Source of the DNA: Pyrococcus horikoshii OT3
GTDB taxonomy: Archaea > Methanobacteriota_B > Thermococci > Thermococcales > Thermococcaceae
Assembly (NCBI RefSeq): GCF_000011105.1
Contig: NC_000961.1
Location: 1,598,662 to 1,662,661 of the forward strand
Direction: 5' to 3'
DNA length: 64,000 bases
Below are positions 15,797-20,806 of this stretch, one piece after another. Every line of letters starts with the position of its first letter. Positions within the stretch are counted from its first letter, which is position 1. The position numbers were made by a program, and so were the translations under genes. Below the pieces are notes generated by a model that made no database searches, was not told the origin of the DNA, and saw only the letters and a program-made list of their open reading frames with translations.

Positions 15797-16554
15797 TAAG
15801 GGAAGGGGATAAAATAATCTTGGTAGATCCCAGGGGTAAGAGGTACTTAGTTACCGCTACTCCAAAGGATTTTCACACGGATCTGGGGATAATTAAGCTT
15901 GGAGATGTTATAGGAAAGAACTTCGGAGATAGCATTAAGAGTCATAAAGGACACGTGTTTAAGATCCTAAAGCCCAGGATAGTGGATTATTTAGATAAGA
16001 TGAAGAGGGGCCCACAGATAGTTCATCCCAAAGATGCAGCATTAATAGTTGCTTATGCTGGAATCTCCCCAGGAGACTTCATTGTTGAAGCGGGAGTTGG
16101 AAGTGGTGCTCTAACTTTATTCCTTGCTAATATAGTCGGACCTCAGGGAAAAATCGTTAGCTACGAGATTAGGGAAGATTTCGCAAAGTTAGCTTGGGAG
16201 AATATAAAATTAGCAGGATTTGAGGATAGAGTCACGATAAAGCTCAAAAATATATACGATGGCATCGACGAGGAAAATGTAGACCATATAGTACTTGATT
16301 TACCCCAGCCAGAGAGGGTCGTTGAGCATGCAATCAAGGCCTTGAAGCCTGGAGGGTTTTTCATTGCTTATACACCCTGTGCAAATCAGGTAATGAGGCT
16401 TCATGATAAGCTTGCGGAGTTTAGAGATACCTTTATGAGGCCAAGAACAATCGAGGTGATAGTATTCGATCAGGAAGTCAAAAAGGAGTGTATGAGACCC
16501 AAGACGACAGTTTTAGCCCATACAGGTTATATAACCTTTGCTAGAAAGCTATGA
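15793..16554 (+). CDS. trmI: tRNA (adenine-57/58-N1)-methyltransferase TrmI
   Basis: S-adenosylmethionine-dependent enzyme that makes m1A58, and in Pyrococcus also m1A57, in the T-loop of tRNAs. The 253-residue protein starts MIREGDKIILVDPRGKRYL and has the class I SAM site EAGVGSGALT, the DLPQPE motif and the C-terminal QEVKKECMRP with cysteines known to stabilise the archaeal tetramer. I recall the P. abyssi enzyme as nearly the same. The ATG overlaps the DUF257 stop; in-frame upstream codons exist but are not conserved. The 3' end touches an antisense C/D sRNA. Confidence 0.96.
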   Translation: MIREGDKIILVDPRGKRYLVTATPKDFHTDLGIIKLGDVIGKNFGDSIKSHKGHVFKILKPRIVDYLDKMKRGPQIVHPKDAALIVAYAGISPGDFIVEAGVGSGALTLFLANIVGPQGKIVSYEIREDFAKLAWENIKLAGFEDRVTIKLKNIYDGIDEENVDHIVLDLPQPERVVEHAIKALKPGGFFIAYTPCANQVMRLHDKLAEFRDTFMRPRTIEVIVFDQEVKKECMRPKTTVLAHTGYITFARKL

Positions 16555-16618
16555 TCAGTTGAGAGGGGGCTCATCATCGAGCGCCTCTCAGGGTACCGTG
16601 AAGATCATCATCACAAAG
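16551..16618 (-). ncRNA. C/D box guide sRNA (rRNA 2'-O-methylation)
   Basis: On the minus strand the order is box C GTGATGA (16608-16614), guide, D' CTGA, a short spacer, C' GATGATGA, a 12-base guide GCCCCCTCTCAA and box D CTGA (16555-16558). This is the complete archaeal C/D sRNA layout. The D' guide (ending CTTCACGGTACC) is complementary to GGTACCGTGAAG, which resembles the conserved 23S rRNA segment around GUACCGUGA in domain I. The gene is antisense to the last bases of trmI and lies just upstream of tRNA-Val. Confidence 0.88.
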
Positions 16619-16671: not shown

Positions 16672-16748
16672 GGGCCCGTGGTCTAGTTGGTCATGACGCC
16701 GCCCTTACGAGGCGGAGGTCCGGGGTTCGAATCCCCGCGGGCCCACCA
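16672..16748 (+). tRNA. tRNA-Val (UAC)
   Basis: A full cloverleaf: acceptor GGGCCCG pairing with CGGGCCC, D-arm, anticodon stem CCGCC/GGCGG with loop CTTACGA (anticodon TAC, valine), T-loop GGTTCGAATCC and encoded CCA. A TATA box GGTTTATAATTG lies at about 16634-16643. The 3' 46 bases are the left copy of the attachment repeat of the integrated element; the gene stays intact after integration. Confidence 0.97.
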
Positions 16749-17068
16749 GAAGCTCCTAAATCTTTCATAGAACCCAATCCGAAAATTAACTCTTCTAAAA
16801 TTTGTATTCTTACATCTAATTCGTTAATACGCCTCTTTAAATCGTTTAAGTCATTAAACGGTTGTACAACTTTTTCCTTAGGTTGTACAACCTGGGAGCC
16901 ATCATTTTCCTCTACATATATAACAAGGGCCCTTCTTCCGTCAACTTCTCTTAACTCTATCTCCACGTCTTTCCCAATTAACCCTTCGAATTGTCTCGGC
17001 AACCGTAATACCGGATACTTAAACCCGTCCTTACTCTTACTTTGGCTAATCCGTCTTTTCATTTTCAT
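16691..17068 (-). CDS. Split SSV-type integrase, N-terminal fragment (intN)
   Basis: An N-terminal integrase piece cut off by integration. From the ATG at 17068 it encodes 122 residues up to the end of the attachment repeat, then four foreign codons and a stop inside the tRNA gene. A basic N-terminus (MKMKRRISQSKSK), a beta-rich part (GKDVEIELREVDGRRALVIYV) and a coiled coil (LNDLKRRINELDVRIQILEE) are visible. The frame across the repeat (GGPAGIRTPDLRLVR) is the same as that entering intC, so the free circle would encode one 457-residue integrase. Starts within the 3' end of the upstream 178-residue gene. Confidence 0.9.
   Translation of the reverse strand: MKMKRRISQSKSKDGFKYPVLRLPRQFEGLIGKDVEIELREVDGRRALVIYVEENDGSQVVQPKEKVVQPFNDLNDLKRRINELDVRIQILEELIFGLGSMKDLGASGGPAGIRTPDLRLVRAAS
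16703..16748. repeat. attL, 46 bp direct repeat (3' half of tRNA-Val)
   Basis: The copy starts CCTTACGAGG within the anticodon loop and ends in the CCA tail. It is identical over 46 bases to 20761-20806; the flanking bases differ on both sides. It is the left junction of the tRNA-Val element. Confidence 0.95.
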
Positions 17069-17582
17069 CATACTCACCTAACGTATCCATAATTTCTTCC
17101 AACTCTTCCGGGCTTATCACAAAAACATTTGAAGCCCCATGCAATATACTAAACGCTCTCGACGCCTTAATGCTCCTCTTAACTAGATTTTCGACATCTC
17201 TTATAACGATAAAACCATAATCGCACATTCTTGACAAATTCGCAATATCTCCCAGAATATATTTGCTCGGTCTATCACTTAATTCGAGTTCAAAACCAAT
17301 GACAATATCCTTGTTTATATCCTTATACTTTGGCAGAATTTCTAAGTTTTCCTTCTCATTAAGATTTACCTTTTTCTTCATTTTTTCATTAACTATTATT
17401 AAAAAATTGACAAACCTTGGATCTGCTCTTTTGTACCAAACTACGTCAATCTTGGGAATATACACTTCACGTCTGTCCTCTTCCCTCAACCCCTCTGGAG
17501 TCCATTCTTCTTCGACTTCAAATCCAAGTTTTTGACCAAATTCCTTTATCTTCTCACGCAACACCTTTTCATTCTCCCTCAT
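17046..17582 (-). CDS. Element-encoded protein with PD-(D/E)XK-like motifs
   Basis: A 178-residue protein of unknown function. The centre carries KIDVVWYK followed about 50 residues later by IVIGFELELS and then GDIANLSRM, an order of acidic motifs (D, then E-x-E) seen in some restriction-endonuclease-fold proteins. The N-terminus is a charged helix. GGGGGGAAGGT precedes the ATG at 17582 and AT-rich TATA candidates lie at about 17620-17632. Its 3' end overlaps the start of intN, so it is the first gene of the element operon. The nuclease assignment is a motif-level guess. Confidence 0.55.
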   Translation of the reverse strand: MRENEKVLREKIKEFGQKLGFEVEEEWTPEGLREEDRREVYIPKIDVVWYKRADPRFVNFLIIVNEKMKKKVNLNEKENLEILPKYKDINKDIVIGFELELSDRPSKYILGDIANLSRMCDYGFIVIRDVENLVKRSIKASRAFSILHGASNVFVISPEELEEIMDTLGEYDENEKTD

Positions 17583-18432
17583 ACCTTCCCCCCGTAAGAC
17601 TCTGGAAACGCTCTAAATCTTTTAATTTCCAATCTTAATATTTTTCATTGTTTTCCATATATACCGTGTTCTGGTCATAGTCAAGGTAAATTTAGCCTTT
17701 ATCCAACCTAAGTTACCTAATTATAATTCTCCTTCTCCCTTGAAGTATAATAATCCCTTCTTCTCTTCCACAATATGGACACTCTAGCATTTAAATCACT
17801 AATATTTCCTGCTTTTTATACTTTTAATCCTATCATTAATGAAGATAGATCTCCCATACGCCACCTGGAGGCTGACAATTTTCAAACCACACCTTCTTTA
17901 TCACCACTTACAATCCTATAACATTTATCACTTTCTTTGTCGGCTACCTCCATCCCCCTCTTCATTAAAATAATTCTTCATTAAATTATAATATTGCAAA
18001 CATCTTGAAAACCAAAACCAAGGTACTCAAACTATGTTCACAACTATATTTATCTTATTGAACTATTGAACATTATCCCCGCATTCATGCCTGATGAATG
18101 CACATCCTTTACTTCCTCTTCCCTAAGGTCACTTTTAATTCTTTTTCAACCCCAATATTCTTCACACTTATATCTTTTTACTCTCTTGTTACTTTCTTCC
18201 CTCTACTCTCCCTTTTTATTAGAACTTCCATCCCTTCAAACTTAATTAATATGATAATCCAAAATTCAATAAAAGGAGTTTTCGTGCATTTAGATGTTAA
18301 GATGCGTTTTTTCCTTGATTTCTACTTTCTAAATTCGCTGATTTGCTATTCAAACTATATTGTTCCTTTTTTACTTGCACATACTTTAAACCTAATTACC
18401 CCTTCAGTCTTAACAACTGTTGAGTGTGATTT
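17583..18432. other. Gene-poor AT-rich region of the element (possible origin)
   Basis: About 850 bp with no convincing gene on either strand. A plus-strand frame at 18098-18436 is rich in Phe, Leu and Ser, and the minus strand there gives only short charged frames broken by stops, as if a gene had decayed. It holds the promoter of the 178-residue gene near its left end, a tandem ATTGAAC (about 18057-18071) and an 8 bp inverted repeat at 18081-18101. Confidence 0.55.
18081..18101. repeat. 8 bp perfect inverted repeat, candidate origin or terminator
   Basis: GCATTCAT and ATGAATGC are separated by GCCTG. The repeat follows two tandem ATTGAAC words and lies in the only large non-coding stretch of the element, where a replication origin would be expected. 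A transcription terminator is an alternative. Confidence 0.45.
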
Positions 18433-19760
18433 TTAACTTATTAGCTCTAATATTTTGTTAACAGCTTCTTTCGCTTCTTTCCAATATTTTACGTTTTTCG
18501 GATTCTTCAATCCACCGCTTTGTTCCAAAGGAATAACTTCATCCTCACTCATCTGTTTTTGCAATTCCTCACTTATCCTTTCAATTTCACTAAACACTAA
18601 AAATACTCTCAGGACTCTAAACTCTCCGTTATCAAATAAGCTCTTCTCTTCCGGTTTCTCTCTATGCGCGTGTTCAATGTACTCTATGTATACATCAGGA
18701 GAAACTTCCAAAAACCGTGCTCCATTTAACATTTCTATCATTATCTTCTCATTGACTTCATAATCTCTCTCGTTAAAATCTCTTGTTTCCTGCTCCCAGA
18801 ATTCTACTAAAAATTCTAAGATGTCAATTTTACCCATTCCTATGCTGGAATGTTTGTTTAACTCCTCAAGTGTCTTAAAATTATAGTTTATGTAATCAAT
18901 GGTCTCCTCAAATAACCTAAACGCTAAACTCTTCCTTTTCTTCCTTCTTTTAGTTTTCTTGCCACCAGCTACTTTTCCTATTTCCTCTAAAAATGTTAAG
19001 ATATCTTTTTCGCTCTCAGACCATTTCCTTCTATCATTTTCCTCATACATTTTTATTGAATAAAATCCCCTATTGACACTTATCCAATTTTTTATTTCTA
19101 TAAGCACAATATTCCTCCTATCAAGGTCAATTAAGCCTACATCAACATATTTACTACCTTTGCTTGGTCTTCCTCTCTTCCCACGCTTTTGCTTGTGGGC
19201 TCTAAAATACGGGATTAGTATATACCTCCTCCTTTTCCGATATAATTCAAATGCAAGTGCCATTAATACTAGATCCTCAGCAATTTTTCCTACGAGTCTT
19301 GCATATTCTTCATATTCTTTTGACGTTTCTATATGTTCACTTATTACTTTTTCAATCTTATGAATTTCCACTTCTCTTTCGCTTTTAATGGCTCCTATAA
19401 ACCTTTTTTTAATTGTTTCGCTTTTCATCTCTTCTATTTCCTTTTTTATTTGATTAATAGAATCACCTGGAATTCCAAAGCTCTCTTTGATTAAGTCAAG
19501 CCACTCGATAATCCTTTGCTTGGTCTCCTCTACAGAATTGCTTTCCTTAATTATCTTAATGAGAGATTCCATGAGTAACATCCTAATCTCATCTTCAATA
19601 CTCTCTATGTCATCCTCAGGCAACACCTTCATAATCATATCAATAAGCCAGGAGGGAGTCTTCTTTCTTCTTCCTCTTTTCTTTTCCCTATCATTATTAT
19701 CTAGGTTGAACTCTACTTTTTCCCCACTTCTTCAATTTTTTCGTTTTCCTTCTCACCCAT
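18433..19760 (-). CDS. Putative PD-(D/E)XK nuclease, with apparent N-terminal frameshift
   Basis: The uninterrupted part, from ATG 19638, encodes 401 residues. It has a long helical N-terminal half and a core with YVDVGLIDLDRRNIVLIEIKNW, the D-x(n)-E-x-K pattern of restriction-endonuclease-fold nucleases, preceded by a basic KQKRGKRGRPSKG. The natural start is probably ATG 19760, whose bases overlap the intC stop; that frame (MGEKENEKIEEVG) runs into a stop at a G4A5 tract (19717-19725), beyond which the next frame continues without a start codon into the 401-residue protein. One missing base explains this. Role unknown: DNA transfer, defence or replication. Confidence 0.6.
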
Positions 19761-20760
19761 TAAAGTCACCTTTCCTTATTACTTCTCTTATTCTAAGGGC
19801 CTCTTCAAGACTATGAAGAACCTTCCCATAATACCTTTTTGCCTGTTTCAATAAATCCAAATAGTGGATTCCCATTATATTATGTCCTTGACTGTGGCCG
19901 ATTATGAATTTCACAACACTTTCGGGAACCCCAAACTCCACCAGCTTATTAATAAGCCATTTTCGCAGATACTTTAACTTTACTCCCCGTTTAACAGCAT
20001 ATGCCTGAATCCTATAATATGTCGTGTCCATCTTTCTAAATCTTCGCCCAAGCCATCCTGGCATAAATGCATAATTTGCCATCTTTGTTTTTCTTGCCCA
20101 TCCCAGCTCATAATACGCTATTTCAACTCCATTAATCTTTTCAAGCTTTAATCGTTTTTCGTCAAAATTCTGCAGAATCCTGACAGCTTCTTTAATTCTC
20201 AATCCACTAAAAGCGATAAGCAGAGTGGCTAACTTTGCATCTTCTCGATCGATCCTCTCGATCCATTCCCTGACTTCTTCATCGCTTGGCACATATAAAT
20301 CCACTCCTATCGAATAATCGAACTTTACTGTCCTTCTTAGCCTATTCGCAAACTCCTCACTTATAATCCCAAACTCAACACAATAATTGATCAGGTTTCT
20401 AAATGCCTTCGCGAATTTGTCTTTGCCCCGTTTAATATTGAACATTATCTCTGCAACGTCACTTGAGTTCCTTATTACTCTATCCCCAATATACCTGTCC
20501 AAATAACTCAGATAATCCTTGGCAACCTTCGCACTCACTTTACTCTTAATCCATCTTTCAAAGCCTCCTCTAATCTCTTTATATACGATTCTTTCGATAA
20601 TTCCTGTTCTACTTATATTAAAGAATCCGAGTCCATTATTATCGTATATACGAGAACTGTATATATGATAATCAGAAATCGTTAGAAAGTTGCTTTTAGG
20701 TAATTCGAAGTTTATAGAGTAAAATTTTTCATTTAGACTGACCATATATCCGTTTGGCAT
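19753..20760 (-). CDS. Split SSV-type integrase, C-terminal catalytic fragment (intC)
   Basis: Tyrosine recombinase catalytic part, 335 codons after the right attachment repeat. The arginine box is FSGLRIKEAVRI, the second box is KYLRKW (K-x-x-R in place of H-x-x-R, as in SSV integrase), and the end has IIGHSQGHNIMGIHYLDL with the nucleophilic tyrosine. An ATG right at the repeat boundary (20760) is coincidental; in the integrated state no promoter or ribosome site precedes it, so it is probably silent. In the circular form it continues in frame from intN. Confidence 0.92.
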   Translation of the reverse strand: MPNGYMVSLNEKFYSINFELPKSNFLTISDYHIYSSRIYDNNGLGFFNISRTGIIERIVYKEIRGGFERWIKSKVSAKVAKDYLSYLDRYIGDRVIRNSSDVAEIMFNIKRGKDKFAKAFRNLINYCVEFGIISEEFANRLRRTVKFDYSIGVDLYVPSDEEVREWIERIDREDAKLATLLIAFSGLRIKEAVRILQNFDEKRLKLEKINGVEIAYYELGWARKTKMANYAFMPGWLGRRFRKMDTTYYRIQAYAVKRGVKLKYLRKWLINKLVEFGVPESVVKFIIGHSQGHNIMGIHYLDLLKQAKRYYGKVLHSLEEALRIREVIRKGDFNG

Positions 20761-20806
20761 CCTTACGAGGCGGAGGTCCGGGGTTCGAATCCCCGCGGGC
20801 CCACCA
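20761..20806. repeat. attR, 46 bp direct repeat
   Basis: An exact copy of 16703-16748, that is, of the anticodon-loop-to-CCA part of tRNA-Val. It marks the right end of the integrated element. The sequence after it (TCGTTGCCTCTTTAG) would be the original 3' flank of the tRNA gene. Confidence 0.95.

Follow-up and report, generated by a model that had tools for sequence, protein, structure and literature searches.

A small, probably non-autonomous SSV-type element with a split integrase at a tRNA-Val gene of Pyrococcus horikoshii OT3

Integration at the tRNA-Val gene

The window analysed here is a stretch of 64,000 nucleotides from Pyrococcus horikoshii OT3 (NC_000961.1, positions 1,598,662 to 1,662,661), and it contains a small element inserted at a tRNA-Val gene. 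Positions below are those of the window unless the OT3 genome or another contig is named. The element is most likely a non-autonomous SSV-type element, that is, a "type I" element with a suicidal integrase, which would be excised only by a related integrase acting in trans. We put the probability of this reading at roughly 0.88. In the SSV-type class, it is well established that each element is inserted at a specific site by the integrase it encodes.

The integration itself is well supported. An intact tRNA-Val(TAC) gene, the attB site rebuilt by the insertion, was located at 16672–16748 on the forward strand (ARAGORN; Rfam RF00005). The final 46 bases of this gene, which in the ARAGORN model start in the anticodon loop and finish with the CCA, make up att copy 1 (16703–16748, forward strand). 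They recur with 100% identity as att copy 2 at 20761–20806 on the same strand, which forms the right end of the element. The start-to-start distance of this direct repeat is 4,058 bp, and the sequences flanking the 46 bp diverge immediately. Since the repeat is an exact copy of the tRNA 3' end, it is not a chance one. The original prediction, made from the nucleotide sequence and its open reading frames (ORFs), had placed a 46-bp tRNA-Val repeat around about 4.06 kb, and this was confirmed. SSV-type integrases likewise target the 3' region of a tRNA gene and leave the gene intact. The G+C content of the element is 35.5%, compared with 40.7% for the window.

Split integrase

The N-terminal fragment of the integrase, int(N), occupies 16703–17077 on the reverse strand (125 codons, starting at the GTG at 17077 or at a more internal ATG). 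It was assigned by a profile and by homology to the int(N) fragments of relatives, with which it shares 68% and 50% identity. The ORF enters the tRNA gene and stays in frame to base 16703, the exact boundary of the repeat. The catalytic fragment, int(C), of 335 residues (20760–19753, reverse strand), opens one base past att copy 2 in the same frame as int(N). The joined frame has no stops and comprises 460 codons from the GTG, 457 from the ATG chosen in the original prediction, or 455 from the ATG best placed in the alignment with the relatives. Accordingly, the predicted in-frame join into a 457-residue integrase was borne out, with a length of 455–460 residues depending on the start codon. 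The att site thus lies inside int, which is split by integration and restored in frame on joining, as in the SSV-type integrases.

The int(C) fragment matched the archaeal phage integrase family PF16795 at 1.3e-37 in the Pfam scan and the integrase family PHROG 5127 at 1.5e-45, and the integrase matched SSV genomes at about 1e-13 to 4e-16 in tblastn. A profile of six IntC relatives matched the solved catalytic domain of the SSV1 integrase (3uxu) at 2.6e-23. Arg188, Lys226, Lys263 and Arg266 (in a KYLR or KYAR motif), His289, and Tyr300 are invariant in six family members, so that int(C) carries the R..K..KxxR..Y arrangement of the archaeal phage integrase catalytic domain. The R..KxxR..Y pattern is the signature of SSV1-type integrases (PMC8371274), and Badel, Da Cunha and Oberto, in their review, assign PF16795 to the suicidal integrases of SSV, pTN3, and pT26-2 (PMC8371274). 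Absence of homology to the SSV-type integrases had been named in advance as a finding that would speak against the prediction; such homology is present in the joined protein.

The frame in which the tRNA is read through in the window (GGPAGIRTPDLRLVR) differs from that of the closest relatives (WWARGDSNPGP). Changes on either side of att offset this difference, and the total stays in frame. Compensated length changes around att have been described previously (PMC8371274).

Empty site and the second integrase of OT3

When the flanks of the element in the window were joined, they aligned with the Pyrococcus genome G007 over an unbroken 1,129 bp (76%) passing through the insertion point. The flanks are contiguous in that genome, and the tRNA-Val site is therefore empty there. 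Both flanks are also present in the Pyrococcus genome G004, with a short unaligned gap between them. In the other Pyrococcus genomes searched, element DNA was absent, with only chance-level matches of 27–35 bp. Comparison of the tRNA-Val loci across Pyrococcus, which had been proposed as a check, thus gave an empty site in G007, and none of the genomes was found to carry the same genes without the second repeat.

Only two SSV-type integrase genes were found in the OT3 genome, that of the window element and that of PHV1 at a tRNA-Ala gene, and the search found no whole SSV-type integrase gene. PHV1 is a type I element of OT3 at genome positions 1,061,525–1,083,228, in tRNA-Ala (PMC6972569). The second integrase match, at genome positions 1,082,377–1,083,162, agrees with this location.

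It should be mentioned that a C/D-box snoRNA, sR42 (Rfam RF01127), lies at 16553–16615 on the reverse strand, just upstream of the tRNA-Val gene and outside the element.

Related elements in Thermococcales

The 94 genomes of the family were searched with int(C), and the closest of the many matches were examined for their architecture. Eight further elements share the layout of a tRNA gene with a 34–48-bp copy of its 3' part lying 2.7–10.7 kb away. Together with the window element (4,058 bp), those at tRNA-Val(TAC) are in G027 (2,687 bp), G071 (8,190 bp), and G087 (8,751 bp). Those at tRNA-Val(CAC) are in G002 (5,585 bp) and G089 (8,606 bp), and the remainder are at tRNA-Ser(GGA) in G021 (6,303 bp), tRNA-Tyr in G093 (8,532 bp), and tRNA-Gly in G044 (10,676 bp). 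The integrase joins in frame in all nine.

A chance repeat or an assembly artefact would be a general possibility for any single genome. However, the architecture is repeated in nine genomes, the site is empty in another Pyrococcus, and both integrase fragments are homologous to those of the relatives, so that this explanation is practically negligible.

In the IntC tree, the nine elements form one clade (support 97/95), within which the window element and that of G002 are sisters (100/98). The clade is separate from that of pT26-2 and PHV1 (97/96) and from the pTN3-type integrases. Its sister relationship to SSV, pSSVi, and pXZ1 has moderate to weak support (89/86), and long branches such as G044 and the Archaeoglobus viruses are placed unsurely. 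The SSV-type interpretation of the original prediction is therefore supported and can be refined: the integrase belongs to a Thermococcales clade of its own rather than to pT26-2 or pTN3. The element had also been described as smaller than most known members. Its small size is right, but it is not a minimum, since the G027 relative is smaller still.

Two kinds of int(N) are found in the clade. By alignment, the window element and those of G002, G027, G021, and G044 share one kind, whereas those of G071, G093, G087, and G089 (8.2–8.8 kb), which form their own IntC subclade (100/100), carry a short, different int(N). SSV-type integrases have a multimerisation domain at the N-terminus; neither Pfam nor PDB gave a significant match for the int(N) fold, though int(N) is conserved in the relatives. 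The folds suspected at first, AbrB-like in one type and ribbon-helix-helix in the other, found no support in these searches.

The gene contents of the relatives are also variable. The G027 element (L032:5943-8674) encodes a split integrase of 595 residues when joined, with a long insert ahead of the catalytic domain; beyond the integrase, there is little except some 0.9 kb in which no large gene lies. The G021 element carries a restriction-type methylase and a specificity subunit. The elements of G071 (L036), G093 (L035), G087 (L033/L066), and G089 (L034/L067), possibly small proviruses or plasmids, encode an ATPase of about 310 residues along with small proteins that bind DNA. Among the relatives examined, a D5_N-type helicase is present in G087, and G089 has a close homologue by sequence.

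Window-type int(N) fragments with no detected partner adjoin tRNA-Val genes in G033, G044 (at a second place), G028, G078, and G075, and those in the last three genomes are interrupted or broken. In G033 (L106:12091-12434) and G044 (L107:6231-6574), int(N) is open and lies by tRNA-Val(TAC), with neither an int(C) nor a second repeat within 19 kb. Judged from their sequences, these lone copies are what is left of insertions that took place repeatedly at tRNA-Val genes.

Scans of IMG/VR with alignments of IntC and of the 401- and 178-residue cargo proteins described below found no relatives. A scan of GTDB genomes with IntC gave a single named match, a Thermococcus metagenome-assembled genome already in the set. 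The ratio of nonsynonymous to synonymous substitutions (dN/dS) between the window element and its sister was uninformative, with synonymous sites saturated.

Comparison with known systems

The SSV viruses, pSSVi, and pXZ1 of Sulfolobales resemble the window element in their PF16795 integrase, in the att site inside int, in their target at the 3' part of tRNA genes, and in the splitting of int on insertion. The window element differs from them in its smaller size, its different N-terminal fragment, its host order, and the absence of a recognised fusellovirus structural gene or known replication protein. The pT26-2/PHV1 family likewise has a suicidal integrase, the 3' part of tRNA genes as target, and Thermococcales hosts (PMC6972569). 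Its IntC, however, is only about 27% identical and falls in a separate clade that does not include the window element, which has four ORFs compared with a 20-kb plasmid. The pTN3/TKV4 family also has a suicidal tyrosine integrase in Thermococcales, but the integrases are far apart in the tree, and the window element has no viral genes and uses the 3' part of a tRNA as att. PYG1 of Pyrococcus yayanosii is similar in being an integrated element in which no replication module was identified, and differs in its size of 21.4 kb, its classical unsplit integrase, and its detection as a circle (PMC8371274).

The class of suicidal-integrase elements is already known, and the window element, though real, is a rather ordinary example. 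The OT3 tRNA-Val element is presumably included in earlier published catalogues by She and colleagues. What appears to be newly added is the nine-element clade, the integrase-only 2.7-kb relative, the clade-restricted gene for the 401-residue protein, and the two int(N) types.

Proposed mechanism of integration and excision

The free circle would encode a single intact tyrosine integrase, with attP within its gene. Recombination by this integrase between attP and the 3' portion of the tRNA-Val(TAC) gene in the host, anticodon loop through CCA, would have rebuilt an intact tRNA and split int into int(N) and int(C). Because int is split on insertion, the integrated element cannot make a whole integrase. 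It would be replicated along with the chromosome, and excision would occur only once an incoming relative supplied a related integrase in trans. TKV4 is excised in trans by the integrase of pTN3 (PMC5495485), and a review covers the excision of SSV2 by a related integrase acting in trans (PMC8371274). The split of int, the absence of a whole SSV-type integrase gene among those found in OT3, and these reports of excision in trans together suggest that the element most likely stays dormant until a related integrase comes in.

Scans with Pfam, PHROGs, NCBIfam, and PADLOC agree with the original prediction that the element has no recognisable replication gene. Capsid and transfer genes were not recognisable either, and the element is therefore most likely non-autonomous. 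Its ORFs gave no match to fusellovirus capsid or core viral genes in PHROGs or Pfam. CRISPR spacers targeting the element were sought in the 94 genomes by a search that scored only three candidates per genome and could have missed spacers; the matches were only weak, and none of the five loci checked lay in a repeat array.

Several points weigh against this mechanism. The free circle is deduced from sequence and not from reads or polymerase chain reaction. The inability to self-replicate, which would follow from the lack of known replication domains, is the weakest step, since a missing domain of this kind is a weak sign of non-autonomy, and the clade-restricted 401-residue protein could be an unrecognised replication protein.

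Another explanation would make the element a satellite that relies on a helper virus for packaging or movement. In Sulfolobus, pSSVx and pSSVi use SSV particles. The window element is in the size class of pSSVi (5.7 kb) and has a related integrase, and Thermococcales also have larger elements that combine a related integrase with a D5-like helicase. The parallel with pSSVi is one of analogy, however; no helper was recognised in the OT3 genome, neither a capsid gene nor a packaging gene was detected, and nothing ties the element to a particle. A helper-dependent satellite would thus be quite improbable. It is likewise rather doubtful, though conceivable, that the window element and its nearest relatives (2.7–6.3 kb) constitute a class of their own, made up of minimal suicidal-integrase elements that lack replication functions. 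Such integrase-level satellites would consist of an integrase with nuclease-like or restriction-modification cargo and would persist only because the integrases of related elements excise them and insert them again.

For archaea, it is an open question how an element survives once its integration has destroyed the integrase it encodes; published work answers with rescue in trans by relatives. The 4-kb element and its 2.7-kb relative are clean test systems for such rescue, since almost nothing else is aboard to explain their persistence. The two unrelated-looking int(N) types on related catalytic domains bear on the published split-integrase recombination model for change of specificity.

Cargo genes and the A+T-rich stretch

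The gene at 18433–19638 (reverse strand), directly downstream of int(C), encodes a 401-residue protein. Divergent homologues occupy the same place in G021 (384 residues) and G002 (347 residues), and a broken copy lies beside tRNA-Val in G083; the family was found in only three of the 115 genomes searched, apart from this remnant. In the profile jackknife, a profile of the window and G002 proteins found that of G021 at 1.8e-11, and a profile of G002 and G021 found that of the window at 3.8e-9; the third combination failed to recover G002. The alignment shows a D-x(n)-E-x-K motif (Asp166-x14-Glu181-x-Lys183 in the window protein) and an upstream G-x3-E, both kept in all three homologues, as in PD-(D/E)XK nucleases. 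At the motif level, the protein is thus predicted to be PD-(D/E)XK-like.

The position of this gene bears on whether the element might be a small autonomous plasmid, in which one of the two cargo genes, most likely that for the 401-residue protein, would encode the replication protein, and an A+T-rich stretch of 850 bp (17583–18432) would be the origin. The gene keeps its place next to int(C) in two sisters with different cargo and has left a remnant in a fourth genome, and such conservation of a core gene, while the rest of the elements varies, points to a function in the cycle of the element itself. However, the motif is nuclease-like and not that of a helicase, primase, or rolling-circle protein. 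The protein has no match in Pfam, PHROG, or PDB profile searches, the 850-bp stretch has no iterons and no large or strong hairpins, and the 2.7-kb relative lacks the gene entirely. An autonomous plasmid is therefore unlikely.

The A+T-rich stretch contains no convincing gene and holds only micro-ORFs; it is a candidate either for an origin or for decayed genes. In the latter case, it might be the scar of a deletion from a larger element of the clade, either one of 8–9 kb with a D5-like helicase or one of 5–6 kb with more cargo. The relatives span 2.7 to 10.7 kb, a D5_N helicase gene occurs in the clade, and partial and gutted copies are known from other genomes. Both cargo ORFs of the window element are intact, however, and the four 8.2–8.8-kb elements form a subclade with the other int(N) type, so that the window element is more than a shortened version of one of these. 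Derivation by deletion seems possible but is open to doubt.

The gene at 17046–17582 (reverse strand), which overlaps the start of int(N), encodes a protein of 178 residues, possibly a PD-(D/E)XK-like nuclease. This protein is 79% identical between the window and G002, compared with 61% for int(C); the modules therefore have different histories. Asp46 (in D46VVW) and Phe97-Glu98-x-Glu100 are conserved in three homologues, which would be compatible with a nuclease, and no Pfam match was found. Profile comparison of the two cargo families gave no relation by that test, and PDB profile searches gave no match for the 178-residue protein either. AlphaFold models from three-sequence alignments, with predicted local distance difference test (pLDDT) values of 43 for the 401-residue and 44 for the 178-residue protein, were too poor for a fold search.

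Distant homologues of the 178-residue protein occur in islands. In G008 (L038:6706-10232), a 326-residue protein with apparently two such domains lies directly downstream of tRNA-Val(GAC) and adjoins MazG-like and McrB-like AAA genes. A broken homologue was found at an island in G075 (L110:6258-17170), by tRNA-Val(GAC) and with an int(N) remnant. This island contains TGT/DpdA-like, HerA-like, NurA-like, and DpdC-like genes and a gene for a 1,568-residue AAA protein, and it ends near the broken homologue. From its gene content, it looks like a defence or DNA-modification island.

Apart from the tRNA end, no RNA family was detected inside the element. Within the A+T-rich stretch, a 25-codon ORF (17713–17790, reverse strand) has a zinc-knuckle-like CPYCG motif and may represent either a microprotein or the remains of a gene.
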